NCBI GenBank assembly: GCA_905234595.1
Contig: CAJOID010000002.1
Location: 1-64,000, forward strand
Direction: 5' to 3'
DNA: 64,000 nucleotides
Source of the DNA: an uncultured Lachnospiraceae bacterium
GTDB lineage: Bacteria; Bacillota; Clostridia; Lachnospirales; Lachnospiraceae
Notes under the pieces: generated by a model
Databases searched by the model: none
What the model was told of the DNA's origin: nothing
Seen by the model: only the letters and a program-made list of their open reading frames with translations
Program-made: the position numbers and the translations under genes
Shown here: piece after piece, positions 9,301 to 25,287 of the stretch
Layout: every line of letters begins with the position of its first letter
How positions within the stretch are numbered: the stretch's first letter is position 1

Positions 9301-12300
9301 TCTATGTTGATAGCATTCCATGTGGCTTCTGTTCCGCCATAATAGATTGATTCCAATGCATAACAATATCTGAATGCACTCTTCTCTATGGTCGTAAGAG
9401 TCCCATTAGAATCCAAAATGGTGACAGTAGTCAATTTAGAGTCAAAATCAAACGTTCCATCAAGAATTCGGGTAATACCGGAAGGAATGGTAATACTCTC
9501 AAGTTCTCCCATGTCTTCCAAGGCCCCGTAGGCAATTCTTTCCAAACCGGAAGGCAGATTCAACTCGGATATCTTAGTATTGGCAAATACGCTGGCGCCA
9601 TACCAGGAAGAATAGGAAGTACCTAACTTCTTAAGTGTATCCGGCAGAGTGATCGAATCCAGCTTACTGCAGTTTTTGAATGCACCATCCGGGAGAGTCT
9701 CCAGCGTATTCGGAAGCCGTACACTTGTAAGGTTCGTGCATCCCATAAACATCTTTTCGCCCATTTCGGTTCTTCCATCGGCAAATGTTACTGTCGTAAT
9801 GGCATCACAACCTTCAAATACTCTTTCACTAAATTCCGGTGAGGCCGGTATTGTTACGGATGTAAGCTTCGTTGCATTGAATGCGCTTTCTCCAATATAT
9901 ACATCTGTATCAGGTATCGTTACACTCGTTAACTGTTTACACCAGTTAAAGGCATTTGCTCCAACTCTTTCTATCGAAGCAGGCAAAACAACCTCGGATA
10001 TATATGTGTATTCAAATGCTTCCCTACCTATCCGGGTAACCGTATCCGAGAACGAAACGCTTCTAAGGGCTCTATAATTCGAATCTACGTTGTTGCTTGG
10101 AGAGGAGTAATATCCCTGGGCAAAATAATCTCCGACTTCAGTTACACCATCCTCAAATACAATACTCCTAAGCGAAGATCTGAATGAATACCACGCATTT
10201 GAATGACTGTTGGAAGAGGTATAATCGTCTGTGGAACCGATACCCAGTACATGAAGAGTTTTACTTCCTGAATTAACAGTATCATCATCCAGATAATAAT
10301 ATGCCGAATCGCCACAGATTCCGGTATTCTCAGTGATTGCAACAGTACCAGTGATCGTTCCGACTGTAGCGGAAGAGGTTTGTACTATCCTGCCTGTATT
10401 GTTTATAGTTGCACCCATATCGTCAGAAATGGTTCCATTAACAGCAATAGTTCCCGTATTTGTCAGAGTTGCATTCTCACCCAGACTAATAGTTCCTTCA
10501 TTGGTCATCACACCACTGTTGGTTACAGTACTACCGGCACCGATATTTAGTGTGCCTCCCGAAGCAACATTCAGGTATACTCCGGAACCGACTTCAACCT
10601 CTACACCATCAGGAATGGTCACATTTCCGGTGATAGCGATCATATTCCTGGTGGCATCTGTTCCATCAGGAGTAAGTGTGATCTTAGATGCTCCCATATT
10701 CAGATATGTCTGAAGCGCACTGGATCCGACAGGCATAGTCAGCGGTATAGCAGCTCCCGACGTCGCTACGGTAAATGTCGCACCTACAGTAATAGGAGTA
10801 ACCGGGTCAGGCATGGTGAATGTCTTAATGTTATCATTTGTACCCGACTGGATCCTGCTCGACAGATCAACTCCGCCCTCACCGGTAAGAGTCACAGTAT
10901 TAAGTTTTAATCCGGTATTAGGTGCAAATGTCAGAGTAACGGTCTCGCCTGCCTTAACCTTCTGAATACGTGAATTTGCAGGGGTAACGGTTATGGTTCC
11001 TCCCGTAGGAGTCAGGGAGGTAACTGCAGCACCCTTTTCTCTCACATAAATTGATACATTAACCTCTCTATTCTTCATGGTAAAGCTGTAATCAGGGGCG
11101 GAAAGACCTTCGCTTATCGTAGAACCGGTCTTGTCATTCTCCGCTTTATGTCTGGCAACCACTCCGATCAGATCATAAGTATCAGGATAACTAAAGACTA
11201 TATTAACAACATCACCCGTAGTGGCCTGGGTAATACCCTGGTCCGATCCTTTATCCGCACGGGCACTGAATCCCGTGGTATTGCCGGGGATAGCCATTCC
11301 CGAATCAGAATCCATAAATACTACACTGACAGGGTTGGTCGCAATGCCGGGGATACCGGAACCGTTTGTAAACTCCGCAGTAATCATAACGTCCTGATTC
11401 GGCATGGTAAATCTGAGCGTTGAATTGCTTGCGGAATAGTTGTATATGGTGGTCCATCCGTTTCCGTTGTCATACTCAACCTTCAGGGAGTGGAGTTCAT
11501 AACCCGTCGAAGGATATGCTGTCATATTGACAACCGTTCCTGCTGATGCCTGACTAACGCTCGTGTAGATGACACCATTGACCGGTGTCGGCGAAGAAAC
11601 CGTACCGTTGGAATAGTAGATATCAATATCGTGCAGCTGTGCAAAGACAACATCGATCGTGACATTACCTGCGGGCATGGTAAATGAGCCGACACCATTT
11701 GTATTAACGATGATCGGCGTAGCCGTACCGTTTTCAGGGGTATATGTCAGAGTCTTAAGCTCGTATCCGCTATCGGGGGTTGCCGTGATCTGAACCGTAT
11801 CTCCTGCGACTGCGCTGGTCTTATCCAGAGTGAGTGTACCACCGGTTATGTTATTAGGCAGAGTCGCCGTATATGTAGGAATCCACTTCGCATAGAAGGT
11901 CTTATCCCCGGTCTCGTCTGTTCCGATCACTGTCACGGGCTGATCGGTATCCGCAGGGCTGTTCGTCGTGAACCAACCGCCGAATGCATAATTATTCTTA
12001 GTCACATTCACCGGCAGTGTGGAGCCCACGCTATAGGTGTATGTGGTCGGATAACCGGCATCATTGATAACACCGTCATTTTTTTCATATACGATGTTAT
12101 AGGTTGCATTCTGGAATTCGGCATTGACTGTTATCGGGCAGTCGGGCATCCGGAATCTGTATACCGAACCTGCGGTTACTACCTCCAGCGTCACCTGATC
12201 ACCCTGTGAGTAATCCTCGTTGAGCTTATAAACCTCCAGTTTCTTTAATTCCTTGCCTGTTTCGGGAGTGATAGTGATGGTTACCCAGTCTCCGGCCTTA

Positions 12301-15300
12301 GTATTAGCAGAATCAAACGCGACTGTTCCGTTGGGTACTCCCGTGTTTAGATTGGATTTATACTTAGGTGTCCAATGCGCATAATATGTCCTGGCACCCG
12401 TCACATCTGTGCCGATAGCCGTAACCTGTGTACCATCGGTTTCTCCGGTGAACCATCCTGCGAATTCATATGTGCATCTGTCTGTAAATGCTCTGGTAAC
12501 ATCCGTAGGAAGGGTTGCGCCCACGCTATACTCATACTCCGACACATTACCTGTATTGATCACGCCACCCATAGTGTTCAGAGTTACGCCGTAATGCGCA
12601 TTCTTAAATGTAACGCTCACGGATATCGGACATGCAGGCATTGTGAATGTATATGTGATCGGATCGGTTTCGGGAGTCACTTTAGCAACATCATCTACCG
12701 TGTCTCCTGTCGGATTACCGCTTTCATCCAGCTTATTAACAGTGACGGTATCTATCACCTTGCCGGTCGGAGGTGTGATGGTGATGGTCACTGTATCGCC
12801 GGACTTGCTGTCCGCCGGGCTGACAGATGTCGTTCCGCTCTGTACCGTGTTGCCTATCTGTGACTTATACCTGGGTATCCAATGTGCATAGTAGGTCTTA
12901 TTGTCCAGATCTGTGGTAAGGATCTTCTCAACCCTGGTTCCGCCGGATGCAAGCGTATACCAGCCATCAAATACATATGATACGTATGTGCCTGCGGCTC
13001 TGGTCACATTTGCAGGAAGGGTGGTCTCCGTTCCGTATACATAAGATGTTACTGTCGATCCGTTGATCTGCGCAGAGGTGTCACCGTCGGCATTCAGATC
13101 CAGAGCCACAGCGTAGGTCCTGGGTGTGAATATTGCGTTGATGGTCACTGATGCCGTAGGCATGGTGAATGTACCGGTTAACTTACCATTGGACTCGCTG
13201 AAGGTTATGTCCTGAGCCGCAGTGGATCCTGCCTCGGTATAGGTCAGGGTCGTCAACCGGTATCCTGCAGCCGGGGTCGCAGTGACGGTGATCACGGTAT
13301 TCATGATCGCACTGTTTACGCTGACTGCGACAGTACCTCCAGTAAATGTACCTGAGTTATTGATGATCAGGTTATATGTCTCATATTCAAACTCTGCCGT
13401 AACGGTAACCTCACCGGCGGGCATATTAAACTTCTTCGTTGAAGTAATATCAGTTTCCGCGGTGTCTCCGGTGGCTTTGTATGTCAGAATCTTAAGCTTA
13501 TATCCTGCATCAGGCGTAACGGTCAGGTTGATCTCATCGCCCATATTCGCCTGAGTCTTATCCGGAGTAACGGTTCCTCCTACTGTCGATGTCGAAGTAT
13601 TTATAACTACGTTGTATGTCTCTTTTACGAATTCAGCGCTGATTGTTACATCGGCAGCCGGCATTGCAAAGGATGTACCGGTTATAGCCACAGGCGTAGC
13701 AGATCCGGCAGTAGTATATGAGAGACTCTGAAGCTTGTATCCGGTAGCCGGGGTAACGGTTACGTCTACAGTTGCATTTTTAGCTGCGGTTGCCTGGCCC
13801 ACGGAGATGCTTCCGTTGGATGTGTTGGCTACAGTGATGTTATATACGTTCTGATCCCATTTAGCATAGAATTCCTTATTGCCGGTCTCGGTATTACCTA
13901 TCGTTGTCACGGATGTATCGCTGTCCGTAGGGTTGGACATCGTGTACCAGCCCGCGAAGTGATAATCCGTCTTCGTAATATCCGTAGGCAGAGTTGTGGT
14001 CGTGCCATATGTATATGTGCCGGCCGGTGTGGTCGCGAACATTCCGCCGTTCTCATGATAGGTGATGGTGTATGTCACACCTGTAGGTGTCCAGCGGGCG
14101 TAGTACTCCTTGTCTCCGGTATCCGTATTGGATATGGATGTGACCTTATATCCGCCGGTTTCCTCCGTATACCACCCGTCAAAAGCATATGTATACTGCG
14201 CCGTGGCAGCCTTACTCATGTCGGCAGCAGCCGGCAGTGTTGCTCCGGTGCCGTATGTATAAGAAGTTACATTACCGCTGTTGACGGTACCGCCATCGTT
14301 ATGCAATGTTACGTTGTATGTACGCGCCGTGGAAGTCCAGTGTGCATAGAACTCTTTATCACCATTATCCGTTGCAGAGATGGCAGTTACCTGATTGCCG
14401 CCTGTTGCGGCATCGAACCACCCGTCAAAGGTGTAGCTGTACTGAGCATTAGTATCCCTGGTGACATTCACGGGAAGTGTGGTAACCGTGCCATAGGTGT
14501 ATTCGGTGACATTGCCGGCATTGATCGCTGCCGTAGTGTCACCGGCTGCGTTCAGATTGAGAGTGACGTTATATTTCAATGCCTCGAACTGCGCGTTGAC
14601 GGCAACATTGGCCGCAGGCATGGTGAATGAACCATGTCCGACGGTATCAATGGTTATCGGTGTTGCAGTTTTCCCTTCTACTGTATAAGTTGCGGATTTG
14701 AGCTGATATCCGAGTCCGGGTTCTACTGTTACATTGACCGTCTGACCATATTGAGCCGTAGTCGGTGCGGTATTATTTTCTACCGAAAGGTCTAAGGTCC
14801 CTCCGGTAACAGACGCCGGTTTGGTCAATTGATAATTGATCTTGGATGCGGTTACACGTATTTCAACCGGACCACTCGGCATAGTGAACCAGGTACTGCT
14901 TCCCACGGTATAGCTTATGTCCCAGTTGCTGTTTAAATTAGTCGGATTAACAAAAGAAACTGCATCTATCTGATAACCCGTTTTAGGTCTTACTGTCAGC
15001 GGAACATTTACACCTACTTTAACAAATGCCGGTGTACTTATTGTTACAAGATCATATTCAGTAGCAGAAATGACTGCACTTAAAGTCAATGGATGCATTG
15101 TATTAGGGTCGAACAACTCTCCATTGAATTCCGTGCCACCCCATACGGATATGAATCCGTAAGACGTACCTGTGGTCTCATCCAACTTTCCGACATCAGT
15201 TCCGAGCAGATTATCTGTCTTAGCAGTAATATGCATGTCATCAGAAGATGTCATAATATTGTGGAAATCAGTATTTGCGGGAACAGATATGGCTCCTCCG

Positions 15301-17555
15301 TCTCCCGTATTCTTGATCTCACCGGCATTCAGATGCACATTTGCTACGGTATTCAATACTACTGTCTGACCTGTCGTAGCCGAAGTGACCGTACCGGAGT
15401 TCATTGTAAATGAACCGCTCGAAACCTGCAGCGCCGTACCGGATGAAGTCAGGGTGCCACCATCCATGGTAAGTGCCGCACCTGCGATCGTCAGTGTCGT
15501 CCCTGTAGATGTCAGAGTACCGCCGTTTATGTTTACCGATCCGGCAGTTGCATTGATGCCTGAATCTGCACTGACCGTACCTCCGGATATGGTGAAGCTT
15601 CCCGTGGTGGTCATTGCGGAATTCAAATCCAACGTACCGGACGTGCTGAAGGTTCCGCTGTTGGTGACGCCACCGCTAAACTCGGATCTGCCGGATGAAG
15701 TATTATTAAATGTACCGGAATTTGTGAACGCTCCTACTACGGTCAGTGTATGCGAGCTGTTGACACTTAGATTACCGTTGTTTGCAAGCGAGCTTCCCAG
15801 ATTGGCAGTACCGTTTACCGCCGCGGATTTGCCGGAGTTTACATCAACCGGTACTCCTGCGCTGGCTGTCAGATTCTTGCCTGCGGGTACTGTGAAATCG
15901 ATATCTACATCAAGCGTGTTATTCCCGGAGCCGGGATTCAGGACAACCTTATTGACTCCTGACTGATTCAGGTAATCCTGAACCGTGGTCGCAGTCTGAG
16001 GCATGGTCAGTTCGACAGTCGAATTGGGGCTGTTATTGGGAGTATTGGTATTTGATGATCCGGGCTGAGTGGCAGGATCATTGTTCGTGCTGCCGGTTGG
16101 AGCCGGGCTGCCCGTCGAAGGAGTTGAAGCTGTTGGAGCAGCAGCCTGGGCAGACTGGGTGGGAGTAGCATCTGTTTTAGAGGGTGAAGACGGAGTACCC
16201 GGATCTGCGGGAGCTACAGCCTTCGTTACAGGATTATCTATAGGAAGTACACGCTCGGTGGGAGCGGGCTTTTCCTCTGCAGTCTCAGCCGGTGCTTCCG
16301 GTTCCTTTGCCGACTTATCGCCTCTTTCCCATACGGGATCCTTGGAGATATTACTCTCCTGTGCCGCTTCCGCTTCACGAATGGCCTGCATGCGCTCGGC
16401 TGTCTCGGCTTCCTTCTCCGCAAGCTTCTCTTCTGCTTCTTCCTGAGTCAGATTTCTCAGATCTATTCCTGACTGATCATATATCTTCTCTATGAGGGGA
16501 TCATCGCCTACAAGCTCCACGAGAACAAATCCGGGGATATCATCCTCGGTGAATCTGCTCGTGCTTATATCACAGCTTTCTCCATCGGGACTCACCGGAA
16601 TCTCGGGACGCTCATTATATGCGGAGCCCACGGCCTCTGACTCCTGCAATGCCTCACCGGTGCCTGCTGCCCCATCTTCCGGTGATGAAGTGTCGGCAGG
16701 TGTACCGGAAGTCTCGGAAGCCCCGGCTGATACAGCGCCGGTATCGGATGCGACCCCATCGGCTGATCCGTTGTTTTCATTATTACCCGCCCCTGAAGCA
16801 GCATTAGAGGAGCCTGCTGTTGCAGCTGATGCATCTGCTTTTTCACCGGATGCGGTATCAGTACCGACAGGCGTGGTAACCGGTACCTGCCCTCCGTCGG
16901 ATGTGCTGATCAGCTCGGGATTCTTATCGAATACCTCTACGCCGTATACCGTAAAGTCAGCCCACTCGCCGGCATGTATGGTGACTGTCTTGATCTGCCC
17001 GTCCACGGGATTGATGACCTTACAGTGGAGGACACCTTCCAGAAGGTGAACACGGGTATTACATCCGTCGACAATGCTGACCCATCCGCAAGTACCGCGG
17101 ATACCGGTCGCCATCGTAGACGTACGGATATTCATCGATTCATCTGATTTCAGGGGAACTGTTACATTGAAATAGAGATTGCCCGATACGAGCAATGCTT
17201 CGAGATTCTTGCCTTTCTGACGTACCTCGACCTCGCTGACTTCATCGACCTTGATAGCCTTGGAGTCATCCAGACTGATCCAGGCATAGGATGCGGTATC
17301 GGTGTCCACATCATCGCCGGAACCCAGACGCATACCGGCGGTGTAAGTCAGATCACCCTTGGTGATATTCGTTACACCGACATCACCCTCGGTCTGCTCT
17401 AGCCTCATCGACTTCGCCTTGGCGGAATTAGCCGCCTGAACATTCATCGGATGGGAAAGTACACTCGCGGCGCATAACACAAATACCAGCGCTTTGCACA
17501 TCAGGCTCCGGGCAATACTTGGTTTATTCGGTTTTCTCTCATCTAAAGAGCGCAT
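6378..17555 (-). CDS. Giant secreted FecR / InlB-repeat / BspA-LRR protein (3,725 aa)
   Basis: One uninterrupted frame, with AGGGA before ATG 17555. Order: signal peptide ending near VQA (residues 1-41); a FecR-type domain (about 50-215; RLEQTEGDVGVTN, STMATGIRGTCGW, VHLLEGVLHCKV); a long Ser/Pro/Thr/Ala and charged linker to about 510; a beta-helix-like region (about 515-760) of short Gly/Ser/Thr repeats; a long array of InlB B-type repeats (YNVTLN...FDGWF...YAHW) and their divergent forms ending FTMP...VTAEF (about 820-2260); three more beta-helix cassettes rich in 'NNGTI' strands; BspA-type leucine-rich repeats (about 2455-2750 and 3060-3225); and an acidic Asp/Gly C-tail. No LPxTG motif or transmembrane anchor is visible at the end. 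InlB and BspA repeats are known in adhesins; FecR domains are known in periplasmic signalling. It heads an operon with an NHL propeller and a CHASE2 cyclase, so it may be an adhesin, a sensor, or both. Confidence 0.85.
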   Translation of the reverse strand: MRSLDERKPNKPSIARSLMCKALVFVLCAASVLSHPMNVQAANSAKAKSMRLEQTEGDVGVTNITKGDLTYTAGMRLGSGDDVDTDTASYAWISLDDSKAIKVDEVSEVEVRQKGKNLEALLVSGNLYFNVTVPLKSDESMNIRTSTMATGIRGTCGWVSIVDGCNTRVHLLEGVLHCKVINPVDGQIKTVTIHAGEWADFTVYGVEVFDKNPELISTSDGGQVPVTTPVGTDTASGEKADASAATAGSSNAASGAGNNENNGSADGVASDTGAVSAGASETSGTPADTSSPEDGAAGTGEALQESEAVGSAYNERPEIPVSPDGESCDISTSRFTEDDIPGFVLVELVGDDPLIEKIYDQSGIDLRNLTQEEAEEKLAEKEAETAERMQAIREAEAAQESNISKDPVWERGDKSAKEPEAPAETAEEKPAPTERVLPIDNPVTKAVAPADPGTPSSPSKTDATPTQSAQAAAPTASTPSTGSPAPTGSTNNDPATQPGSSNTNTPNNSPNSTVELTMPQTATTVQDYLNQSGVNKVVLNPGSGNNTLDVDIDFTVPAGKNLTASAGVPVDVNSGKSAAVNGTANLGSSLANNGNLSVNSSHTLTVVGAFTNSGTFNNTSSGRSEFSGGVTNSGTFSTSGTLDLNSAMTTTGSFTISGGTVSADSGINATAGSVNINGGTLTSTGTTLTIAGAALTMDGGTLTSSGTALQVSSGSFTMNSGTVTSATTGQTVVLNTVANVHLNAGEIKNTGDGGAISVPANTDFHNIMTSSDDMHITAKTDNLLGTDVGKLDETTGTSYGFISVWGGTEFNGELFDPNTMHPLTLSAVISATEYDLVTISTPAFVKVGVNVPLTVRPKTGYQIDAVSFVNPTNLNSNWDISYTVGSSTWFTMPSGPVEIRVTASKINYQLTKPASVTGGTLDLSVENNTAPTTAQYGQTVNVTVEPGLGYQLKSATYTVEGKTATPITIDTVGHGSFTMPAANVAVNAQFEALKYNVTLNLNAAGDTTAAINAGNVTEYTYGTVTTLPVNVTRDTNAQYSYTFDGWFDAATGGNQVTAISATDNGDKEFYAHWTSTARTYNVTLHNDGGTVNSGNVTSYTYGTGATLPAAADMSKAATAQYTYAFDGWYTEETGGYKVTSISNTDTGDKEYYARWTPTGVTYTITYHENGGMFATTPAGTYTYGTTTTLPTDITKTDYHFAGWYTMSNPTDSDTSVTTIGNTETGNKEFYAKWDQNVYNITVANTSNGSISVGQATAAKNATVDVTVTPATGYKLQSLSYTTAGSATPVAITGTSFAMPAADVTISAEFVKETYNVVINTSTSTVGGTVTPDKTQANMGDEINLTVTPDAGYKLKILTYKATGDTAETDITSTKKFNMPAGEVTVTAEFEYETYNLIINNSGTFTGGTVAVSVNSAIMNTVITVTATPAAGYRLTTLTYTEAGSTAAQDITFSESNGKLTGTFTMPTASVTINAIFTPRTYAVALDLNADGDTSAQINGSTVTSYVYGTETTLPANVTRAAGTYVSYVFDGWYTLASGGTRVEKILTTDLDNKTYYAHWIPRYKSQIGNTVQSGTTSVSPADSKSGDTVTITITPPTGKVIDTVTVNKLDESGNPTGDTVDDVAKVTPETDPITYTFTMPACPISVSVTFKNAHYGVTLNTMGGVINTGNVSEYEYSVGATLPTDVTRAFTDRCTYEFAGWFTGETDGTQVTAIGTDVTGARTYYAHWTPKYKSNLNTGVPNGTVAFDSANTKAGDWVTITITPETGKELKKLEVYKLNEDYSQGDQVTLEVVTAGSVYRFRMPDCPITVNAEFQNATYNIVYEKNDGVINDAGYPTTYTYSVGSTLPVNVTKNNYAFGGWFTTNSPADTDQPVTVIGTDETGDKTFYAKWIPTYTATLPNNITGGTLTLDKTSAVAGDTVQITATPDSGYELKTLTYTPENGTATPIIVNTNGVGSFTMPAGNVTIDVVFAQLHDIDIYYSNGTVSSPTPVNGVIYTSVSQASAGTVVNMTAYPSTGYELHSLKVEYDNGNGWTTIYNYSASNSTLRFTMPNQDVMITAEFTNGSGIPGIATNPVSVVFMDSDSGMAIPGNTTGFSARADKGSDQGITQATTGDVVNIVFSYPDTYDLIGVVARHKAENDKTGSTISEGLSAPDYSFTMKNREVNVSIYVREKGAAVTSLTPTGGTITVTPANSRIQKVKAGETVTLTFAPNTGLKLNTVTLTGEGGVDLSSRIQSGTNDNIKTFTMPDPVTPITVGATFTVATSGAAIPLTMPVGSSALQTYLNMGASKITLTPDGTDATRNMIAITGNVTIPDGVEVEVGSGVYLNVASGGTLNIGAGSTVTNSGVMTNEGTISLGENATLTNTGTIAVNGTISDDMGATINNTGRIVQTSSATVGTITGTVAITENTGICGDSAYYYLDDDTVNSGSKTLHVLGIGSTDDYTSSNSHSNAWYSFRSSLRSIVFEDGVTEVGDYFAQGYYSSPSNNVDSNYRALRSVSFSDTVTRIGREAFEYTYISEVVLPASIERVGANAFNWCKQLTSVTIPDTDVYIGESAFNATKLTSVTIPASPEFSERVFEGCDAITTVTFADGRTEMGEKMFMGCTNLTSVRLPNTLETLPDGAFKNCSKLDSITLPDTLKKLGTSYSSWYGASVFANTKISELNLPSGLERIAYGALEDMGELESITIPSGITRILDGTFDFDSKLTTVTILDSNGTLTTIEKSAFRYCYALESIYYGGTEATWNAINIDPEENSYFLDAKLYYFNHLNTVSVQYTEAGGNVKAFIGENEIGATQTVMGGEQITIVATPNEGYETGKITVTGTNGTEIPVETGMFIMPTQAVSINVEFVSWENATTFNGSTAAELQTLLNANSAVRITSDLTLDSDLTIGANKILVVDSGTSLIVSAGKTLTIAAGGVINNSGTLTNNGELVCCGTINNKSINTVINNGRFYIKRNSVFNNGVGDDAGRFVNGTTGRVGNLGSFVNNAGSRVTDSGLFAGNAITGTGTVDTSGTPNINYSGSCAAEDDQNAFFVLDEEGLFTVFGDGPMADYGVNGRPYSYSGITSINIEDGITRIGSNAFYGAYSLSSSNISIASTVTTIGEYAFAYCTNEAFTGIELSDNITHIEESAFRGCYYLGSVSIPAGCEEVGDYAFAYCSSGDMRRVDLAESSCSYGDNVFDGDDDIEEVHIPLSLTSVPYRMFYNCSSITDVYYPGSRGQWNNLKSRSLSGNDCLFNATIHCEGGDGYCVTIADGMTDGTVVATSGNNDITNLEAGTTVTLTVTPAEGYEMQYLNIISGNSNYIDYDETATANVFTFTMPENNVTVSAVFSQLVTSAEGLAAALADENTSTISLQGDITIGSDLTIPEGKMLVVGSQYSLTIASGVTLVVDEDAYIENYGSMVNNGTVTLGEDAFVYNAGSFVNYGSLEIQGGSFYNGGMDGSGSMENNGTIDVEANAYFGNYAIFENNGTINIASDGEFENNGLLANLSKNTINVTGTLTNYNMLVNGDTDGHPGRLNVKYYGVLTNNGQIENNSGSEINIEEYGLITNNASIVNNEGAEINNNGQYSGSAPTGEGELKGEGSFSSGGGKTPGGKDDELIPFPGGKSIPGSDDKGDIGDLGDMETGKGGDYDDDNGGISDDTSKGEGLGFPIFDKGGNNDYPQSGDDLTSGDDNDTTTTDPMIPAKGDSQSGDTQPGNSGDNTDGTQGNDGGDSGSGDTQGDD
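7880..8380 (-). repeat. BspA-type leucine-rich repeats, C-terminal cluster
   Basis: Within the giant gene. Repeats have the 'ITxIxxxAFxxCxxLxSVxIP' spacing, for example ITRIGSNAFYGAYSL and ITHIEESAFRGCYYLGSVSI, ending in the characteristic YYPGSRGQWN. These are known in Treponema and Tannerella BspA-like surface proteins. Confidence 0.8.
9310..10190 (-). repeat. BspA-type leucine-rich repeats, larger cluster
   Basis: Within the giant gene. About ten repeats such as VTRIGREAFEYTYISEVVLP, VERVGANAFNWCKQLTSVTI and LETLPDGAFKNCSKLDSITL, closing with IYYGGTEATWN, the usual end motif of this repeat family. Confidence 0.85.
11630..14990 (-). repeat. Alternating InlB B-repeats and divergent InlB-type repeats
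   Basis: Within the giant gene. Classic units carry 'TYTYG..TTLP..', 'FDGWFD/Y' and 'GDKEFYAHW'. The interleaved units carry 'G..V.VT..PATGYKL..LTY' and 'FTMPA..VTV.AEF'. Period is about 70-90 residues. The array makes the DNA repetitive at codon level but the copies are well diverged. Confidence 0.8.
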
Positions 17556-17603: not shown

Positions 17604-17632
17604 TTGACAAAATCTCAGCATATAAGTATATT
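17604..17632 (+). promoter_or_regulatory. Promoter of the HD-GYP gene
   Basis: TTGACA (17604-17609), a 17-base spacer and TATATT (17627-17632) form a near-consensus vegetative promoter. It lies inside the first codons of the track's longer ORF, which supports the downstream ATG at 17718 as the true start. Confidence 0.75.
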
Positions 17633-17717
17633 GCGAATAACAGATGACGGAATACCCCCAAAAGTCGGTATTTTGGTAATAACCGATAAAGATATAATGA
17701 GGCAGGAGGTTTGTCAT

Positions 17718-19904
17718 ATGAGCGAAGGATCTGTAAAGACAGCCATACGGACAGGAAAAGTAAGTAAAATCGCGGAAAAACTGTTCTATTTCAGTATCGT
17801 GGCTGCCCTGATAATATCTGCAATCATCATGGGTATAGCAAGATATGATACCGATATAACCGGCGAGGCGGATATGGGTTCCTTCTCCACGCGCAGTTTC
17901 AATGAGGGATGGCGTATGGATAATGACTCCATCACCCTCCCTGCTACCGTAGACAGTCATGTATATGATGAAGTTACGATCATAAACACTCTGCCGGATG
18001 ACATCAGTGACGGTTCGACTCTGATGATCCGGTCATCCATGGAGGATGTATATATCTACGTGGATGGTGATATCCGTACATTCTACTCGACCGATTCGAT
18101 CAGAGGTATGCCGTACTACATCCCCAGCGCTTATGTGGTTGCGGACCTTGATTCCGCCGATTCGGGTAAAACGGTCAGGATCACTTTTAAGTTTAAGTCC
18201 GCCGGTGAACTCAACGAAGTGGTCATCAGTAACGGTAACAATGCCTGGTTTAAGGTGATCAGCGATTCATTGCCAGTGAATCTCATAGCACTGTTCGTTC
18301 TGGCCGTGGGCATCATCATAGTGATCGTGACTCTCCTGCTTAACGGCTCCTATCACGTCACCGCACCCAGGAGTCTGGGATTGCTGATGGTAAACGTGGC
18401 CCTGTGGGTATTCGGTGAATCCACCTTACGTCAGATCATTTTCCGCCGGGCGACTCTTTCACAGTATTTCTCATATATCAATGTCGAGCTCATCGGCATA
18501 TTCGTCTGCATGTTCTATGATGAAGTCCAACGCAGACGGTATCATAAAAGATATCTGGCAGCCGAGATCATCCTGTTCGTTCAGCTGCTGCTCAATATAC
18601 TCCTGGATGTGACCGGAATCTGCGAACTCTACCGTACACTTCTGATAAGTCATTTATGGGCCGGAGCCGGATTCATCATGATAATCGTCACCCTGATCAC
18701 CGACGGCAGGAAGCATCAGATCCGCGGTTACAGGATCACTGCCATAGGTATGATCTGCTTCGTAGCAATGGCACTGGTTGAGCTTCTCGGCTTCTATATC
18801 AACCGATTCCACCTGTTCGGATCCTCCATCTGTATCGGCCTGCTGCTCCTCATGACCGCGACCATATTACAGACCGTGTCAGACGAAGTACGCGTATTCC
18901 ATGAACGCGAGGAGGAACAGCTCAGGACAACCATCACTACCATCGAAACCATCGCAAGTGCGATAGACGCAAGAGACGAATACACCGGCGGACACTCCGA
19001 GCGCGTAGGTCTCTACGCAGTCAGGCTGGCCAGGGAAATGGCGCCCGAATATGGTCTGAGCGAGGAACAGATACTCAGGATCCACTACATCGGCCTGATG
19101 CACGATATCGGTAAGATAGGGGTTGCCGACTCCGTTCTGAACAAGTCGGGCCGTCTGACAAACGAAGAATTCAGTCTGATGAAGAAGCATCCGGAGATAG
19201 GATATGAGATCATGCAGTCTCTGGGCGGAAGCATAGACGGTCTTCTGGACGGTATCAGGTATCACCACGAAAGATATGACGGACACGGCTATCCCGATGG
19301 TCTGGCCGGTACCGGTATTCCTCTGATAGCCCGGATACTGGCGCTTGCTGACAGCTTTGATGCCATGACATCTAACCGTGTATATCGCAAGAGGCTTACC
19401 GATGAAGAGGTCAGATCAGAGCTTCTCAGATGTTCCGGAACTCAGTTCGATCCTGAACTGACGACAATATTTGTCCGGCTTCTGGATCGCGGCGAACTGA
19501 AACTCAACACAGTGGACGGAGTCGCCGCTGATGAATGCGGACGGGTAATGAAATCCGCCCTGCTTGAGTCCCGCCTTCAGCATGATCTGCTGGCAGATAC
19601 GGATATCTCCAACCCGTCGCATGTACGCATGCTCTGCTATGTAATGAAGCTTATGGAGAAAAAGGGAAATGAATACACCGTACTATTTACGGGCTTGACT
19701 CCCGATGAAAAAGACGGATCCGGTGAGACCTGGGCTTCTGCAAAGAAGACCATAAGTGAGCATATAGGCTCTTATGATGTGAATATAGAGTACACCGGAG
19801 AGACTAATATAATTGCTCTGTATGACCGGAACGACTCACAGGTGAATGATTTCATTGCCGGACTTAAGGAAATATCCGGTCGGATCACAACAGATAAGCT
19901 CTAG
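17718..19904 (+). CDS. Membrane HD-GYP c-di-GMP phosphodiesterase
   Basis: The start is ATG 17718 (MSEGSVKTAI, 728 residues), with GGAGG 8 bases upstream and a promoter at 17604-17632. One helix near residues 25-45 precedes an extracellular beta-rich region of about 140 residues. Then come seven or eight transmembrane helices from about 195 to 400, resembling the 7TMR-DISM sensor layout. The HD-GYP domain follows (near 415-600) with intact HSERVGLYA, LMHDIGKIGV, YHHERYDGHGYPDGL and LALADSFDAMTSNR motifs, so hydrolysis of c-di-GMP is expected. About 125 further residues form a separate C-terminal domain I do not recognise. The gene diverges from the giant FecR-protein operon across about 160 bases, so cyclic-nucleotide and c-di-GMP signalling genes sit back to back. 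Functional linkage is inferred. Confidence 0.9.
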   Translation: MSEGSVKTAIRTGKVSKIAEKLFYFSIVAALIISAIIMGIARYDTDITGEADMGSFSTRSFNEGWRMDNDSITLPATVDSHVYDEVTIINTLPDDISDGSTLMIRSSMEDVYIYVDGDIRTFYSTDSIRGMPYYIPSAYVVADLDSADSGKTVRITFKFKSAGELNEVVISNGNNAWFKVISDSLPVNLIALFVLAVGIIIVIVTLLLNGSYHVTAPRSLGLLMVNVALWVFGESTLRQIIFRRATLSQYFSYINVELIGIFVCMFYDEVQRRRYHKRYLAAEIILFVQLLLNILLDVTGICELYRTLLISHLWAGAGFIMIIVTLITDGRKHQIRGYRITAIGMICFVAMALVELLGFYINRFHLFGSSICIGLLLLMTATILQTVSDEVRVFHEREEEQLRTTITTIETIASAIDARDEYTGGHSERVGLYAVRLAREMAPEYGLSEEQILRIHYIGLMHDIGKIGVADSVLNKSGRLTNEEFSLMKKHPEIGYEIMQSLGGSIDGLLDGIRYHHERYDGHGYPDGLAGTGIPLIARILALADSFDAMTSNRVYRKRLTDEEVRSELLRCSGTQFDPELTTIFVRLLDRGELKLNTVDGVAADECGRVMKSALLESRLQHDLLADTDISNPSHVRMLCYVMKLMEKKGNEYTVLFTGLTPDEKDGSGETWASAKKTISEHIGSYDVNIEYTGETNIIALYDRNDSQVNDFIAGLKEISGRITTDKL

Positions 19905-19923: not shown

Positions 19924-20547
19924 TCAGTCATTGATGGCGAGTCCTAAGTGTCTCGCTTTCACAGCCAGTTCAAGCCTGCTCTTATATCCGGTCTTCTGCA
20001 GCATATTTGAGATATGCATTTTGACTGTGGACGGTTCTATGCTCAGTTTCTCTGCGATCTCTGCGTTCGAAGCACCCGATACCAGTTCTCTTAGTATCTC
20101 CACCTCTCTGGATGTAAATTCCGTACTTACGGCATTACCTATGGCTACTTCACTCTGCCGGCCGGGATACACTGTCTCCCCGGACATGACCAGATCCATC
20201 ATCTCTTTAATGGACTGTTCCTGTACTTCCTTTTGCCAGAAACCCTCGATGCCTATCTCCCGCGCTCTGCTTTCGTATGACAGCTCAGGCATGGATGTAA
20301 CAACTATGATCTTTATACCGGGTTTGGAACTCTTGATCCTGTCCGCCGCATCAAGTCCGTTCATACTTCCCGGAATGAGCACATCCATCAACACCAGGTC
20401 GGCATCATGTTTCTCCAGATATTCCATTGCCTGTACAGCCGTGGGGAAAGATGCCTCCAGTTCATATTCCGGGGAACGGTTCACGGTCTCCTCAAAAATC
20501 TCTCTGATCATGCGGAAGTCCTCCGCGATCACGACTCTATAAGCCAT
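19924..20547 (-). CDS. NarL/FixJ-family response regulator
   Basis: 207 residues. The receiver domain (about 1-120) has the acidic pocket (VVIAEDF), the phospho-acceptor Asp in LVLMDVLIPGSMNGLDAAD, the Thr/Ser switch (IIVVTSM) and the conserved Lys (FWQKEV). A LuxR-type helix-turn-helix covers about 145-205 (LTSREVEILRELVSGASNAE, STVKMHISNMLQKTGY). It should bind DNA when phosphorylated. The start overlaps the end of the kinase gene by 11 bases (ribosome binding site GAGGA), and it is the last gene of the run read leftward from 27.1 kb. Its 3' end meets the convergent HD-GYP gene with only 19 bases between, and I see no hairpin terminator there. Confidence 0.92.
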   Translation of the reverse strand: MAYRVVIAEDFRMIREIFEETVNRSPEYELEASFPTAVQAMEYLEKHDADLVLMDVLIPGSMNGLDAADRIKSSKPGIKIIVVTSMPELSYESRAREIGIEGFWQKEVQEQSIKEMMDLVMSGETVYPGRQSEVAIGNAVSTEFTSREVEILRELVSGASNAEIAEKLSIEPSTVKMHISNMLQKTGYKSRLELAVKARHLGLAIND

Positions 20548-21760
20548 ATATCGATTCCTCGCCCTTCCCGGGAAGAATTACAGTCATGATAAACCTTGGT
20601 AAAGATGTGATCTCCATACTGCCGCCTGCCTCTTCAACGATATTGCGAAGATTGGTCAGCCCGCCTCTTTCGGTGATCTCACTTTCCGGCGGTCTCCCAT
20701 CGTTGGTCATCTTCAGGATATACCTGTTATCTTCTTCTGTCACGGTTATGGTTACGACCGTACCGTCAGCATGTTTCAGTGTATTTCCGAGTTGCGTGGA
20801 TATCGCGGCATCCACCACAGGTATAAGATCCGTCTCTTCCGGAAGCACACCGCGGATATCCAGCCTGATACCCAGTCTGTCCGCCTCTTTGGATATCACA
20901 TAATACGGCAGTTCCCATTCCTCCGGCTGGCCGTTGATGAGATGATTGATATTGTCCCTCCAGAAATCCAGCATCTCTTTTTTATCAACACTGTCCGGTA
21001 CGGTCAGATATCTCTTTGCGATCAGTATACTCTGTCCGATATTGTCATGGAGAGTTCTTTTTAACTGGAACAGTTCCCGGTTCATGGTGACGTACTCTAT
21101 TGTCCCCATAAGAGCTTTCAATCTGTTGTTAATAACTCTGGCCCTGCTGCATTGCAGCTCCAGCCTGCGGGACAGTTCATACTCCCTGCTGATATCAGCG
21201 GCAGTCAGTTCATACACTTCACGGCCATCTATATTGAGAGTATTCTGCCGTATACTGTATACTTTTTCCTCATTATGGACCAGTTCCGGTGCTTTAGCTG
21301 CGAAGTCTGTCGCATCAACTATACTCCGGCCGGTCACTTTGCGGCTGATCTGCTGCATCGATTCATTAACCATGATCGGAGTACCGTCGGCCATATAATA
21401 ACACAGACCGGTCGGGATCCTGTCAAAGGCCTCATTTACGGACAGGCGTGATATATTCTTTTGCTTCCATCCCGAGATATATACAAATGCATATATGCTG
21501 AATACGAACAGAAGTACCAGGATCATCACCAGGGCGATCACCGGAAAATCAAAAGAATCTATATCACTTTCCTGATAGTTACACATAAACTGATACAGGA
21601 TAAAACCAAGCAACGCAGCTGCAACAGTGACTGCAAGCATCAGATTTCTCATTCCTATAATGAGCATTCTGATGATCGCTGCCAAATATATGATCAGGAT
21701 GACAGTTGTGAATACGAGAAGGATCCCTCTTATGATTTCCGGAAGTAAAGTATATGTCAT
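20537..21760 (-). CDS. Sensor histidine kinase (NarX/LiaS-like, HisKA_3 type)
   Basis: 407 residues. Three hydrophobic segments lie in the first 110 residues, followed by a PAS-like segment (GLCYYMADGTPIMVNESMQQ). A HisKA_3-type dimerisation region follows with phospho-acceptor His in QLKRTLHDNIGQSILIAKRY. The C-terminal GHKL ATPase has an N-box (TQLGNTLKHADGTV), D-box (LKMTNDGRPP) and G-box (GGLTNLRNIVEEAGGSMEI), so it looks catalytically complete. The ribosome binding site is GGAGGTGAAGG. It overlaps the upstream 7TM protein gene by ATGA and the downstream regulator by 11 bases, which means tight translational coupling. It pairs with the adjacent NarL-type regulator; the signal is not evident. 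Confidence 0.9.
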   Translation of the reverse strand: MTYTLLPEIIRGILLVFTTVILIIYLAAIIRMLIIGMRNLMLAVTVAAALLGFILYQFMCNYQESDIDSFDFPVIALVMILVLLFVFSIYAFVYISGWKQKNISRLSVNEAFDRIPTGLCYYMADGTPIMVNESMQQISRKVTGRSIVDATDFAAKAPELVHNEEKVYSIRQNTLNIDGREVYELTAADISREYELSRRLELQCSRARVINNRLKALMGTIEYVTMNRELFQLKRTLHDNIGQSILIAKRYLTVPDSVDKKEMLDFWRDNINHLINGQPEEWELPYYVISKEADRLGIRLDIRGVLPEETDLIPVVDAAISTQLGNTLKHADGTVVTITVTEEDNRYILKMTNDGRPPESEITERGGLTNLRNIVEEAGGSMEITSLPRFIMTVILPGKGEESIYGL

Positions 21761-23373
21761 ACCTTCACCTCCAGTCTGATATAGTATGTCTCATCTTCGG
21801 ATCTGACGGATATTATTCCGCCGGCCGCAGCTGTCTGCGCCTTCTTCCAGTCGGAGGTTATCCCTTCCGCCGGAGTATCCAGCGCGATATTCATCGTAAA
21901 CATATCCCCCGGACTTAGTTCCACACTGACAGTACCAAGCTTCGTCCGTACATCTTCGATAGTATCTTCAAAAAGCTCATACGCCAGAAGTGCGGCTTTT
22001 GCCGGAAGTTCAGTTTCCTCTTCCGCTTCTATGAGACATACACATCCGTTGAGACGCAGATAATCAAACGATTCAACTATGGCAAGCTTCAGTTCTGCAG
22101 AGGATACGGTTCCCTTCTCATCGCCCAGCAGAATGAGGTTTCCAATCCTTTTGATATATGCACTCAAGAGAGCAGCATAAACGATATCTGACCGGGAATC
22201 AGCTGTTTCCGCGTCTGTATCCGCACGGGTCAGAAGTTCATTTACCGTTACGGCTCTGCTCTGTACCGCTGCAGCTATCCTGTTATACAACCGGTTTTTG
22301 GTCTCGAAGCTGACACGCTCTGCGCGGACTTCATTCTCTTGTATTATCAGATCGTTCTCATCCCTGAGTTCTTCGGCTACTTCTTCAAGCTCACGGTTCA
22401 GCCGGTTGATCGCGGAGATATCTTCGATCCAGGATATACAACCTCCCGATATAGGTTCCTTCGATATACGATGATCCTCATCCTGTCCGGCCTCTGACCA
22501 GCCAAGTGATGTCTGCACGGGATTCCCGTCCTTATCAGAGATACATGCATTTATGCCGGAGTGTTCAAAGAGCTTTCTGTATCCGTTATTTGCCGGGATC
22601 ATACCGATCTGGATAATGCTCTCAAAAGCCATCATATAAGGAATACACAGTGCTTCATGGAGTTGAAACAGTTTGTATCCCCATACTTTCGGTGCTCCGC
22701 CGTTGATCTGGTACCACAGCAATAATATACTGCTGACAGCTATACATATCACCGGTATGTACCACTTACGCCTGGCGGATGACAGGGCACACTTTCTGAA
22801 GAGTATGACCAGAATTCCGACAGTGAGCGCTATACGCCATGCCATCAATATGTAATAAAAGACCTCGTGCGTATATTCTTTATCCGGGTGAACAGTGATC
22901 TTATAGACAAGACTATGCAGATTGTTAGTCATGGCAACAGCCACAAACAACGTACTGATGATGATCAGAATGATCTCGATCCGGCGGACCGTACGCCTGC
23001 TGCCCACAGGTTCAACATAGAGTGTTGCTGCAAACATAAACAGCGGGAAAAAAGTGCGGGGGATCATGTAAGAATACCAGATATACTCCCTGATCATTGC
23101 ATCTTCGGGGAAATAGGTGTATTTGCACATCCTCAGGAAAAAGAGCAGCACCATGAACGCGCAGCTGATGAGGATCCTGACCCGGACCTCCTTATCGACT
23201 ATGCGGATCCTGACCGTAGCTGCCCACAGAATGATCATTGCCAGATAACTGAAAGAAGAAACGTGATGCAGCAGTTTGATCGGATAGGTATTTGTAGTGG
23301 CATACACTCCGATGATAAACAGAACCGCAAATATGCAGATCATACGTTTATTGGTATAGTATAACCTCTTCAT
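21757..23373 (-). CDS. 7TM sensor protein with degenerate kinase-like C-terminus
   Basis: 538 residues. About eight hydrophobic helices fill residues 10-270. A short PAS-like stretch follows (ACISDKDGNPVQTSLGW), then a coiled coil (about 330-370; LNRELEEVAEELRDENDLII). The C-terminal 170 residues are spaced like a histidine-kinase ATPase: an N-box-like LAYELFEDTIEDV and a final GGIISVRSEDETYYIRLEV. I find no phospho-acceptor His box and no DxG or GxG ATP motif, so it is probably an inactive pseudokinase. The start ATG overlaps the previous gene's stop (ATGA) and it overlaps the true kinase gene the same way. It probably feeds signals to that kinase; I do not recognise a named family. Confidence 0.75.
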   Translation of the reverse strand: MKRLYYTNKRMICIFAVLFIIGVYATTNTYPIKLLHHVSSFSYLAMIILWAATVRIRIVDKEVRVRILISCAFMVLLFFLRMCKYTYFPEDAMIREYIWYSYMIPRTFFPLFMFAATLYVEPVGSRRTVRRIEIILIIISTLFVAVAMTNNLHSLVYKITVHPDKEYTHEVFYYILMAWRIALTVGILVILFRKCALSSARRKWYIPVICIAVSSILLLWYQINGGAPKVWGYKLFQLHEALCIPYMMAFESIIQIGMIPANNGYRKLFEHSGINACISDKDGNPVQTSLGWSEAGQDEDHRISKEPISGGCISWIEDISAINRLNRELEEVAEELRDENDLIIQENEVRAERVSFETKNRLYNRIAAAVQSRAVTVNELLTRADTDAETADSRSDIVYAALLSAYIKRIGNLILLGDEKGTVSSAELKLAIVESFDYLRLNGCVCLIEAEEETELPAKAALLAYELFEDTIEDVRTKLGTVSVELSPGDMFTMNIALDTPAEGITSDWKKAQTAAAGGIISVRSEDETYYIRLEVKV

Positions 23374-24308
23374 TGCTGTCCTTTATAATACTCCGCCACC
23401 GTCCGTAGCGCGGGCTTGGCATATATGTCATAGTCCTTATACTTATCTATATCAGCGGGATCATAGAGATCTGCCGTCCATGACCAAAGTGCCATGCCGC
23501 GCACGAAGCTGCGGGAAGCACAGGCCTTAAGCATCACTTCATACCATGCCTGCTGCCCGGCCGGGTCGGAAGCGCCCGCGATCGACCAGTCATTCGGAAC
23601 CTTATTCGATCCCTCAGCTGACATACATCCCGTTTCAGCAAAAAAGAACGGTTTACCGAACCGGCGTACGACTGTCTCGATCCTGTCAAGCTGTCTATCC
23701 CAGTCATCTATCGGGTAATATCCGCTCGATGAAATCACATCCACCGCATCCCACCAGGTCACATTATGCTCCTGATATTTATCGCAGTTATAGGAAACCG
23801 GTCCGTGGTAAACTCCGCGGATATCCGAGATCAGCTGTCTCCACTCCGCTTCACGATGGTCACTCATGACCATCTCGCATCCCGCGATGAACATCTCACA
23901 ATGCTTCTCTTCGGCAATGCGCGCGAAATGCAGCTGGAAAGCGGTATATGACTTAAACCAGTTACTCCACTTCGGCTCACACGGCACGTCTTCATCAAAG
24001 AAATGAATATGGGCACGCCATGTCCCGTCCAGACAGTTGACCGTGGGTTTGACAGCAACGCTTAAGCCCAGTGCATGAGCCTCATCGATGATCTCCCTAA
24101 GTTCATCATCCCTCATCGTCGAAGGTGAAGTGAAGTCGATCTCCTCGGAAGTGGCTGTAGCCTGATATGCTGCCGGCACGAAGATCACGAAGTTTGCATG
24201 AGTCTGCTCCTTCATGATCCGCAGGCTTTGTTTTGCTTTTTCGGTTGAGATGACCCCCGCCGGTACAAACGGGGCGAAGGTCAGTCCGCAGATATGATCA
24301 GGTATCAT
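23370..24308 (-). CDS. Cytoplasmic TIM-barrel glycosidase, GH113-like
   Basis: 312 residues with no signal peptide. The order of strands and motifs fits clan GH-A: an N-terminal GLTFAPFVPAG, strand motif LSVAVKPTVN, an acid/base-type Glu in FIAGCEMVMSDHREAEW, the aromatic DVISSSGYYPI and a nucleophile-type Glu in KPFFFAETGCMS. This best resembles GH113 (beta-mannanase/mannosidase), often mislabelled as 1,4-beta-xylanase. It lies between diaminopimelate dehydrogenase (one-base gap) and the 7TM sensor (ATGA overlap). That position suggests it acts on an oligosaccharide related to the signal this operon senses. Family call moderate; substrate unknown. Confidence 0.7.
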   Translation of the reverse strand: MIPDHICGLTFAPFVPAGVISTEKAKQSLRIMKEQTHANFVIFVPAAYQATATSEEIDFTSPSTMRDDELREIIDEAHALGLSVAVKPTVNCLDGTWRAHIHFFDEDVPCEPKWSNWFKSYTAFQLHFARIAEEKHCEMFIAGCEMVMSDHREAEWRQLISDIRGVYHGPVSYNCDKYQEHNVTWWDAVDVISSSGYYPIDDWDRQLDRIETVVRRFGKPFFFAETGCMSAEGSNKVPNDWSIAGASDPAGQQAWYEVMLKACASRSFVRGMALWSWTADLYDPADIDKYKDYDIYAKPALRTVAEYYKGQQ

Positions 24309-24309
24309 T

Positions 24310-25287
24310 TTACAGATAATGAGCCCTCAGCTCTTCGGCAGATACAGGTGACAGGTAAGCGGGTGCTATATCGAATACGGTTTTTCCTCCGGTCACGCCT
24401 TCGGCATTTAATCTTACGATCGCTCTCGCATAGGCGGTAAGCACGGCTCCGGTAAACTCGGGATTGGAATCAAGCTTCAGTTTATACTCGATCACGTGCT
24501 TATTACCATTTGAACCGGTCTCTCCGCTGTATATCACGGATCCGCCGTGAGGAAGTCCGCTGTGATCACGCTTCATTTCCTCTGCGGTAATGAAATGTAC
24601 GGTAGTATCATAGTCTGCGAAATAATTCGGCATGGTCTTGATCTCTTCTTCGATCCTTGCCTTATCCGCATCATCGGCCGCTACCACGAAGCACTCTCTG
24701 GTGTGCTTTTCTCTGGTGGTAAGTGTGGGGTTTGATCCGCTCCTGACCTTATCAACCGCTGCTTCCACGGGGATCGTATACTGACGGGCATCAAGTACGC
24801 CTTCTATACGGCGGATCGCATCGGAGTGACCCTGGCTTACGCCCTTTCCCCAGAAAGTATAGTCGTGCCCGCCGGGCAGGATAGATGTCGCATACAGACG
24901 GTTCAGTGAAAACATTCCCGGATCCCAGCCGCAGGAGATCAGGCCTATCCGGCCGCCCTTTTTAGCTGCCGCATCCACATTTGCGAAGTGTGTCGGAATG
25001 TTTGCATGAGTGTCAAAAGAGTCCACAACGTTGTACAGCGCTGCATATTTCGGTGTCATCCCGGGCAGATCGGTCGCACTGCCGCCGCAGATGATGAGAA
25101 CATCTATATCTTCCAGCCCGGTGTCGAGCTCAGTCGCACTCTTAACTGCCGCTCCGGGAGTAGCTACGGACAGACCCGCGGGATCACGACGGGTATATAC
25201 CGCCTTGAGCTCTATGTCATCGCATCTTGCGATGGCTGCTTCCACACCTCTGCCCAGATTACCGTAACCTAAGATTCCTGCTTTCAT
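24310..25287 (-). CDS. ddh: meso-Diaminopimelate D-dehydrogenase
   Basis: 325 residues. The N-terminal Rossmann motif is ILGYGNLGRGVEAAI. Ddh family signatures follow: VVDSFDTHANIPTHF, ISCGWDPGMFSLNRL, TFWGKGVSQGHSDAIRRI and TRECFVVA. The enzyme reductively aminates tetrahydrodipicolinate with NADPH and ammonia to give meso-diaminopimelate for lysine and peptidoglycan in one step. The start has GGAGGAGATCA directly upstream. It lies 21 bases after the DUF6472-like gene in the eight-gene run and shows no lysine-riboswitch-type leader in that short gap. Confidence 0.93.
   Translation of the reverse strand: MKAGILGYGNLGRGVEAAIARCDDIELKAVYTRRDPAGLSVATPGAAVKSATELDTGLEDIDVLIICGGSATDLPGMTPKYAALYNVVDSFDTHANIPTHFANVDAAAKKGGRIGLISCGWDPGMFSLNRLYATSILPGGHDYTFWGKGVSQGHSDAIRRIEGVLDARQYTIPVEAAVDKVRSGSNPTLTTREKHTRECFVVAADDADKARIEEEIKTMPNYFADYDTTVHFITAEEMKRDHSGLPHGGSVIYSGETGSNGNKHVIEYKLKLDSNPEFTGAVLTAYARAIVRLNAEGVTGGKTVFDIAPAYLSPVSAEELRAHYL

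Follow-up and report, generated by a model that had tools for sequence, protein, structure and literature searches.

The locus described here raises the question of how a membrane protein with a histidine-kinase-like C-terminus takes part in signalling when a second histidine kinase is encoded immediately beside it. It lies in a 64,000-nucleotide stretch of DNA from an uncultured Lachnospiraceae bacterium, which we call the window. Four genes follow one another on the minus strand, encoding a GH113 glycosidase (23370-24308), a 538-residue 7TM receptor pseudo-histidine kinase made up of a HisKA_7TM region and PAS-like, DHp and CA parts (21757-23373; the 7TM protein below), a partner histidine kinase of 407 residues with three transmembrane (TM) helices, a PAS-like part and a DesK-type DHp and CA (20537-21760), and a NarL/LuxR-type response regulator of 207 residues (19924-20547). 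The regulator combines a receiver domain (Response_reg, Pfam E=5.7e-20), in which the phospho-acceptor D55 is present, with a GerE helix-turn-helix (E=2.7e-17). A reading made from the DNA letters only (the sequence-only reading) had described four coupled genes with ATGA or 11-base overlaps, and both the coordinates and the overlaps of 4, 4 and 11 bases were confirmed; the gene run is longer than was stated there, however, since a DAP dehydrogenase (DAPDH) gene upstream of GH113 ends 1 base away from it. The window also contains a convergent neighbour (17604-19904, plus strand) that encodes a membrane protein with an HD_5 (HD-GYP-like) domain, perhaps involved in cyclic-di-GMP turnover, and a gene for a 3725-residue, probably secreted repeat protein (6378-17555, minus strand) with many 'YNVTL...FDGW...A.W' units and leucine-rich-like stretches.

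Hydropathy predicts eight TM helices within residues 11-259 of the 7TM protein (22597-23343, minus strand), made up of seven plus one N-terminal helix, which fits an N-in/C-in topology. The earlier label of a seven-helix protein, kept here as a name, was therefore correct as to a multi-spanning protein but not as to helix number, which is nearer eight. In a full-length structure model the TM part was too weak (pLDDT 51, pTM 0.31) and was used for the helix count only. The HisKA_7TM family (PF16927) is matched at E=1.8e-5 with 25.2 bits, below the family cut-off of 28.6; 18 of 24 relatives match it at E<=0.01 (best E=1.8e-11), and the relatives L035, L040 and L042 exceed the curated cut-off. 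A TNxxH motif at residues 149-153 (T149, N150, H153) is almost universal among the pseudokinase relatives and is shared with single-protein kinases (L124, L126 and L129), which give strong HisKA_7TM, HisKA_3 and HATPase_c matches; a HisKA_7TM-PAS-HisKA_3-HATPase architecture occurs in the class. Some pseudokinases have additional sensory parts: L040 and L042 (783 and 778 residues) carry a doubled 7TM unit, and L054 (1276-4218) has an N-terminal extension of about 390 residues with no Pfam match, which is probably extracytoplasmic. From this doubling and this extension, the sensory variety is located on the pseudokinase.

Behind the membrane part, the 7TM protein continues into a histidine-kinase core made up of PAS-like, DHp and CA parts. 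Alignment with hhalign of a profile of 24 of its relatives against a profile of 24 partner kinases gave 97.2% probability (E=4.6e-11) over 355 columns, with Y363 aligned to H238, the phospho-acceptor of the kinase. Searching PDB chains by sequence with the 7TM profile returned nothing meaningful, so a fold search was used instead. The C-terminal 277 residues, modelled from four sequences, form a long coiled-coil helix and a second helix followed by E-H-E-E-H-E-E-H-E-E, which is the DHp/CA order (mean pLDDT 64; about 65-86 in the CA part). Foldseek placed the ChpT structure 4fpp first among PDB entries (E=5.4e-8), with further matches to DesK, YycG-type kinases, DivL (4q20) and RetS-GacS (7n0e). 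Structure prediction of this C-terminus, which the sequence-only reading had proposed as a check, recovers a kinase fold.

The fold has been kept, while the residues that make a kinase active are missing. In the degenerate DHp hairpin (residues 341-415; 22129-22353, minus strand; delimited from the model and Foldseek), Y363 replaces the phospho-accepting His (22285-22287, minus strand; alignment of relatives). This position holds Tyr in 33 of 46 pseudokinases, Phe in three and His in three, the latter forming one lineage (L040-L042), with the rest mixed non-His residues, so that loss of the His is not universal. The degenerate CA domain (residues 422-537; 21763-22110, minus strand) has neither ATP lid nor G1 or G2 box according to model and alignments: in the model the fifth strand leads to the last helix with no lid in between, and an alignment of 46-47 relatives shows no consistent G1 or G2 motif. 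The N-box Asn is replaced by D474, and only 5 of the 46-47 relatives have Asn there; E473, also read as this position, was dropped because two alignments put the N-box residue at 474. What does remain is a family signature, K408-R409 (22147-22152, minus strand), invariant in 47/47 relatives, together with a nearly invariant N412. In the doubled-7TM pseudokinases L040 and L042 the H-box His is still present, along with an Asn resembling that of the N box, but there are no consistent G boxes; this may be an intermediate stage. Judged from alignments and model, the 7TM protein is thus a degenerate histidine kinase that lacks the residues for ATP binding or His phosphorylation. The GHKL-like C-terminus without His or ATP-binding boxes claimed earlier is borne out by Y363, D474, the missing G boxes and the hhalign homology, and a functional ATP site, which had been named as the observation that would speak against a pseudokinase, was found in neither sequence nor model.

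The ChpT-like fold invites the idea of a trans-phosphorylation relay, in which the kinase would phosphorylate the pseudokinase DHp as a ChpT-like phosphotransferase and this would feed the regulator. ChpT phosphotransferases are indeed the best fold matches and the His is kept in L040-L042, but with Tyr in 33 of 46 members and non-His residues in all others bar those three, we regard such a relay as very improbable.

The neighbouring kinase has largely retained what the 7TM protein lost. Its phospho-acceptor H238 (21047-21049, minus strand) and N-box N326 (20783-20785, minus strand) are invariant in 45/45 kinases, and the G2 box is of the GGL type, with G367 kept in all 43 aligned rows that have a residue there. 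These features agree with a DesK/NarX-type kinase, as do matches to HATPase_c (Pfam, E=1e-3) and to DesK structures (E=3e-16). The exception is the G1 box, N353-D354-G355 in the alignment (20696-20704, minus strand), which reads NDG here and NNG in most relatives in place of DxGxG, the first Asp being changed to Asn in 41 of 44. The description of this kinase as complete therefore holds for the H, N and G2 boxes but not for G1, and because of this atypical box we infer its activity, and its ATP site, from homology with DesK.

To what extent the two proteins belong together was addressed in a family survey of 150 genomes and a class survey of 292 genomes. The 7TM protein is present in 19/150 genomes of the family survey, where 21 kinases scoring above 300 bits and a fusion at 173 bits all adjoin a 7TM gene, the next best hit scoring 78 bits. 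Because many of these kinases had gone into the profile, the class survey gives a less biased picture. It added 18 kinases at 173-375 bits, each of them adjoining a 7TM gene, and the next best hit has 99 bits. Over both surveys, 39 kinases of the subfamily and one fusion each lie beside a 7TM pseudokinase. At 26/26 loci with a kinase match the kinase gene lies downstream of the 7TM gene and in the same orientation, the two overlapping by 4 bases in most cases. By crude gene calls, the gene directly after the kinase encodes a NarL-type regulator in at least 36 of 44 regions. Where a 7TM gene has no kinase beside it, it lies at the end of a contig; the exception is the divergent L058, whose neighbour matches only weakly. 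The family is also present in other classes of the phylum. A lack of conserved linkage had been the other observation named in advance as counting against the system, and the opposite is found, with 7TM-kinase-regulator linkage conserved across many families. The genome of the window also carries a second, diverged pair with its own regulator (G000 contig C105:2893-5852; L002, L083), whose 7TM protein and kinase are 31% and about 30% identical to those of the window.

This conservation bears on whether the 7TM protein might be a decaying former kinase without a role, as its lost catalytic boxes could suggest. Full-length frames in many families, K408-R409 in 47/47 relatives and strict 1:1 pairing leave hardly any room for decay, which, judged by the sequences, is already contradicted by conservation.

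The same loci allow the role of the glycosidase to be assessed. The sequence-only reading took the coupled GH113 gene as a hint that the signal is a carbohydrate, and one could imagine a carbohydrate-sensing operon in which GH113 makes or removes the ligand, given the ATGA overlap of the GH113 and 7TM genes and a full-length GH113 match (Pfam E=1.7e-129, profile 1-289/289). GH113-sensor linkage is, however, limited to the window and one 94-97% identical relative. A genome of the same genus that lacks the sensor (G003) contains MATE, DAPDH and GH113 genes, with DAPDH adjoining GH113 and the two proteins 84.6% and 77.3% identical to those of the window, whereas GH113 is absent beside the sensor at L009, L010, L004 and the sensor loci examined in other genera. 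In two genomes with both (G155 and G177) they are on different contigs, and sensor and GH113 co-occur in 3/150 genomes against about 1.6 expected (19 and 13 of 150). Here the sensor operon follows a DAPDH-GH113 operon that also exists independently of it, so GH113 says little about the ligand. The glycosidase is an overlapping gene and not a conserved part of the sensor system; a carbohydrate link through GH113 as a conserved feature was ruled out by G003 and the GH113-less loci, the carbohydrate hint is not supported, and a ligand-processing role for GH113 seems highly unlikely. DAPDH and GH113 themselves (23370-25287, minus strand) are adjacent both here and in G003, with no obvious functional link between them.

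We propose that the two proteins probably form a split sensor, in which the receptor pseudokinase would bind its dedicated kinase directly and control it; the complex, its ligand, which partner controls the other, and the regulon are all inferred. The 7TM (8TM) protein would be a receptor with a kept histidine-kinase fold, complexed with the neighbouring kinase, most simply by pairing of the DHp helices into a heteromeric bundle. Movements of the receptor driven by its ligand would toggle the kinase between an autophosphorylating and a phosphatase state, and phosphate would pass from the kinase to the NarL-type regulator, whose gene comes next.

Two natural variants favour such a complex at the level of gene sequence. 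At one locus (L035 589-2658, G164:C66), pseudokinase and kinase are fused in a single 689-residue frame in which the TM region comes first, then a degenerate DHp/CA bearing the KR motif, then an intact DHp/CA bearing IHDSLG, ITNILRH and GGL; the TM and PAS parts of the kinase itself are gone, and the regulator that follows is 55% identical to that of the window. Additionally, hydropathy detects no TM segment in the kinase at five or more loci (L018, L021, L026, L032 and L038), which leaves the pseudokinase as the sole visible receptor there; the trees need 3-4 changes for this loss, with events that are not well resolved. On the other side, most kinases keep three TM helices, as hydropathy indicates for the kinase of the window, and could sense alone. 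Pseudokinase and kinase tree distances correlate (r=0.83, n=40 pairs), but co-inheritance alone could give this, and the correlation is expected of any co-inherited gene pair.

The retained DHp hairpin and the invariant K-R..N in its second helix could also point past the kinase, to a pseudokinase that acts on the regulator, binding it (in phosphorylated form or not) by DivL-like DHp docking as a phospho-sensor, scaffold or phosphatase, while the kinase would sense through the PAS domain and three TM helices that it has itself. In DivL, Tyr likewise stands in for the His, and DivL binds DivK~P (PMC4211667). We consider this unlikely, though less so than the relay, as at the loci with membrane-less kinases or the natural fusion no receptor other than the pseudokinase is visible, which points to the kinase as its target. 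Returning to the split sensor, a bolder version, somewhat short of an even chance in our view, is that of a widespread Bacillota three-gene class in which sensing and catalysis would be shared out between a multi-TM receptor pseudokinase and its dedicated kinase, the two active only as a heteromer and the invariant K-R..N of the pseudokinase DHp working in trans on the kinase, a bacterial analogue of receptor pseudokinases such as HER3.

How signals travel from the membrane to the catalytic core of a histidine kinase dimer is difficult to dissect, as the dimer consists of two identical halves. A natural system in which one chain senses and the other catalyses would allow each to be mutated separately and would show whether asymmetric signalling suffices. 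The receptor is easily overlooked in annotation because recognisable catalytic domains are found only in the adjoining kinase, and the pairing occurs in many gut-type Clostridia.

Several known systems share parts of this arrangement. ChpT, a soluble phosphotransferase with a His, resembles the C-terminus of the 7TM protein in its DHp and CA-like fold and is its best PDB match, but the 7TM protein has Tyr in place of that His, plus a TM sensor. In Caulobacter, DivL carries Tyr for the phospho-accepting His, works through the kinase CckA and binds DivK~P (PMC4211667). It is like the 7TM protein in its histidine-kinase fold (Foldseek 4q20), its His-to-Tyr change and its action via another kinase; it is, however, a PAS/DHp/CA sensor of a phosphorylated regulator and not a 7TM receptor, whereas the 7TM protein has lost its CA boxes, is a multi-TM receptor and belongs to an obligate gene pair. 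RetS of Pseudomonas is a sensor kinase without kinase activity that modulates GacS by direct contact (PMC5992135), an inactive sensor kinase modulating another as we propose here (Foldseek match 7n0e), but RetS has receiver domains and three mechanisms on GacS, in contrast to a simple receptor with an operon partner. ChrS and HrrS of Corynebacterium form native heterodimers, and an evolved dead ChrS pseudokinase promotes signalling by the partner kinase (PMC9491836); that pseudokinase is a laboratory frameshift mutant, while the 7TM pseudokinase is a natural conserved family. The single-protein HisKA_7TM kinases (L124, L129) share the 7TM region, its TNxxH motif and the order PAS, DHp, CA; they differ in that a single chain has retained the His and the N and G boxes, whereas in the pair described here one chain would sense and the other catalyse. 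They probably show the ancestral one-chain form, from which the split pair could have arisen. A literature search on histidine pseudokinases with 7TM regions, HisKA_7TM and paired kinases, with most subscription journals outside its reach, returned no description of the pair. That a pseudokinase can control a histidine kinase is already known; what is new is a conserved, operon-encoded, one-to-one split of receptor and kinase in Bacillota.
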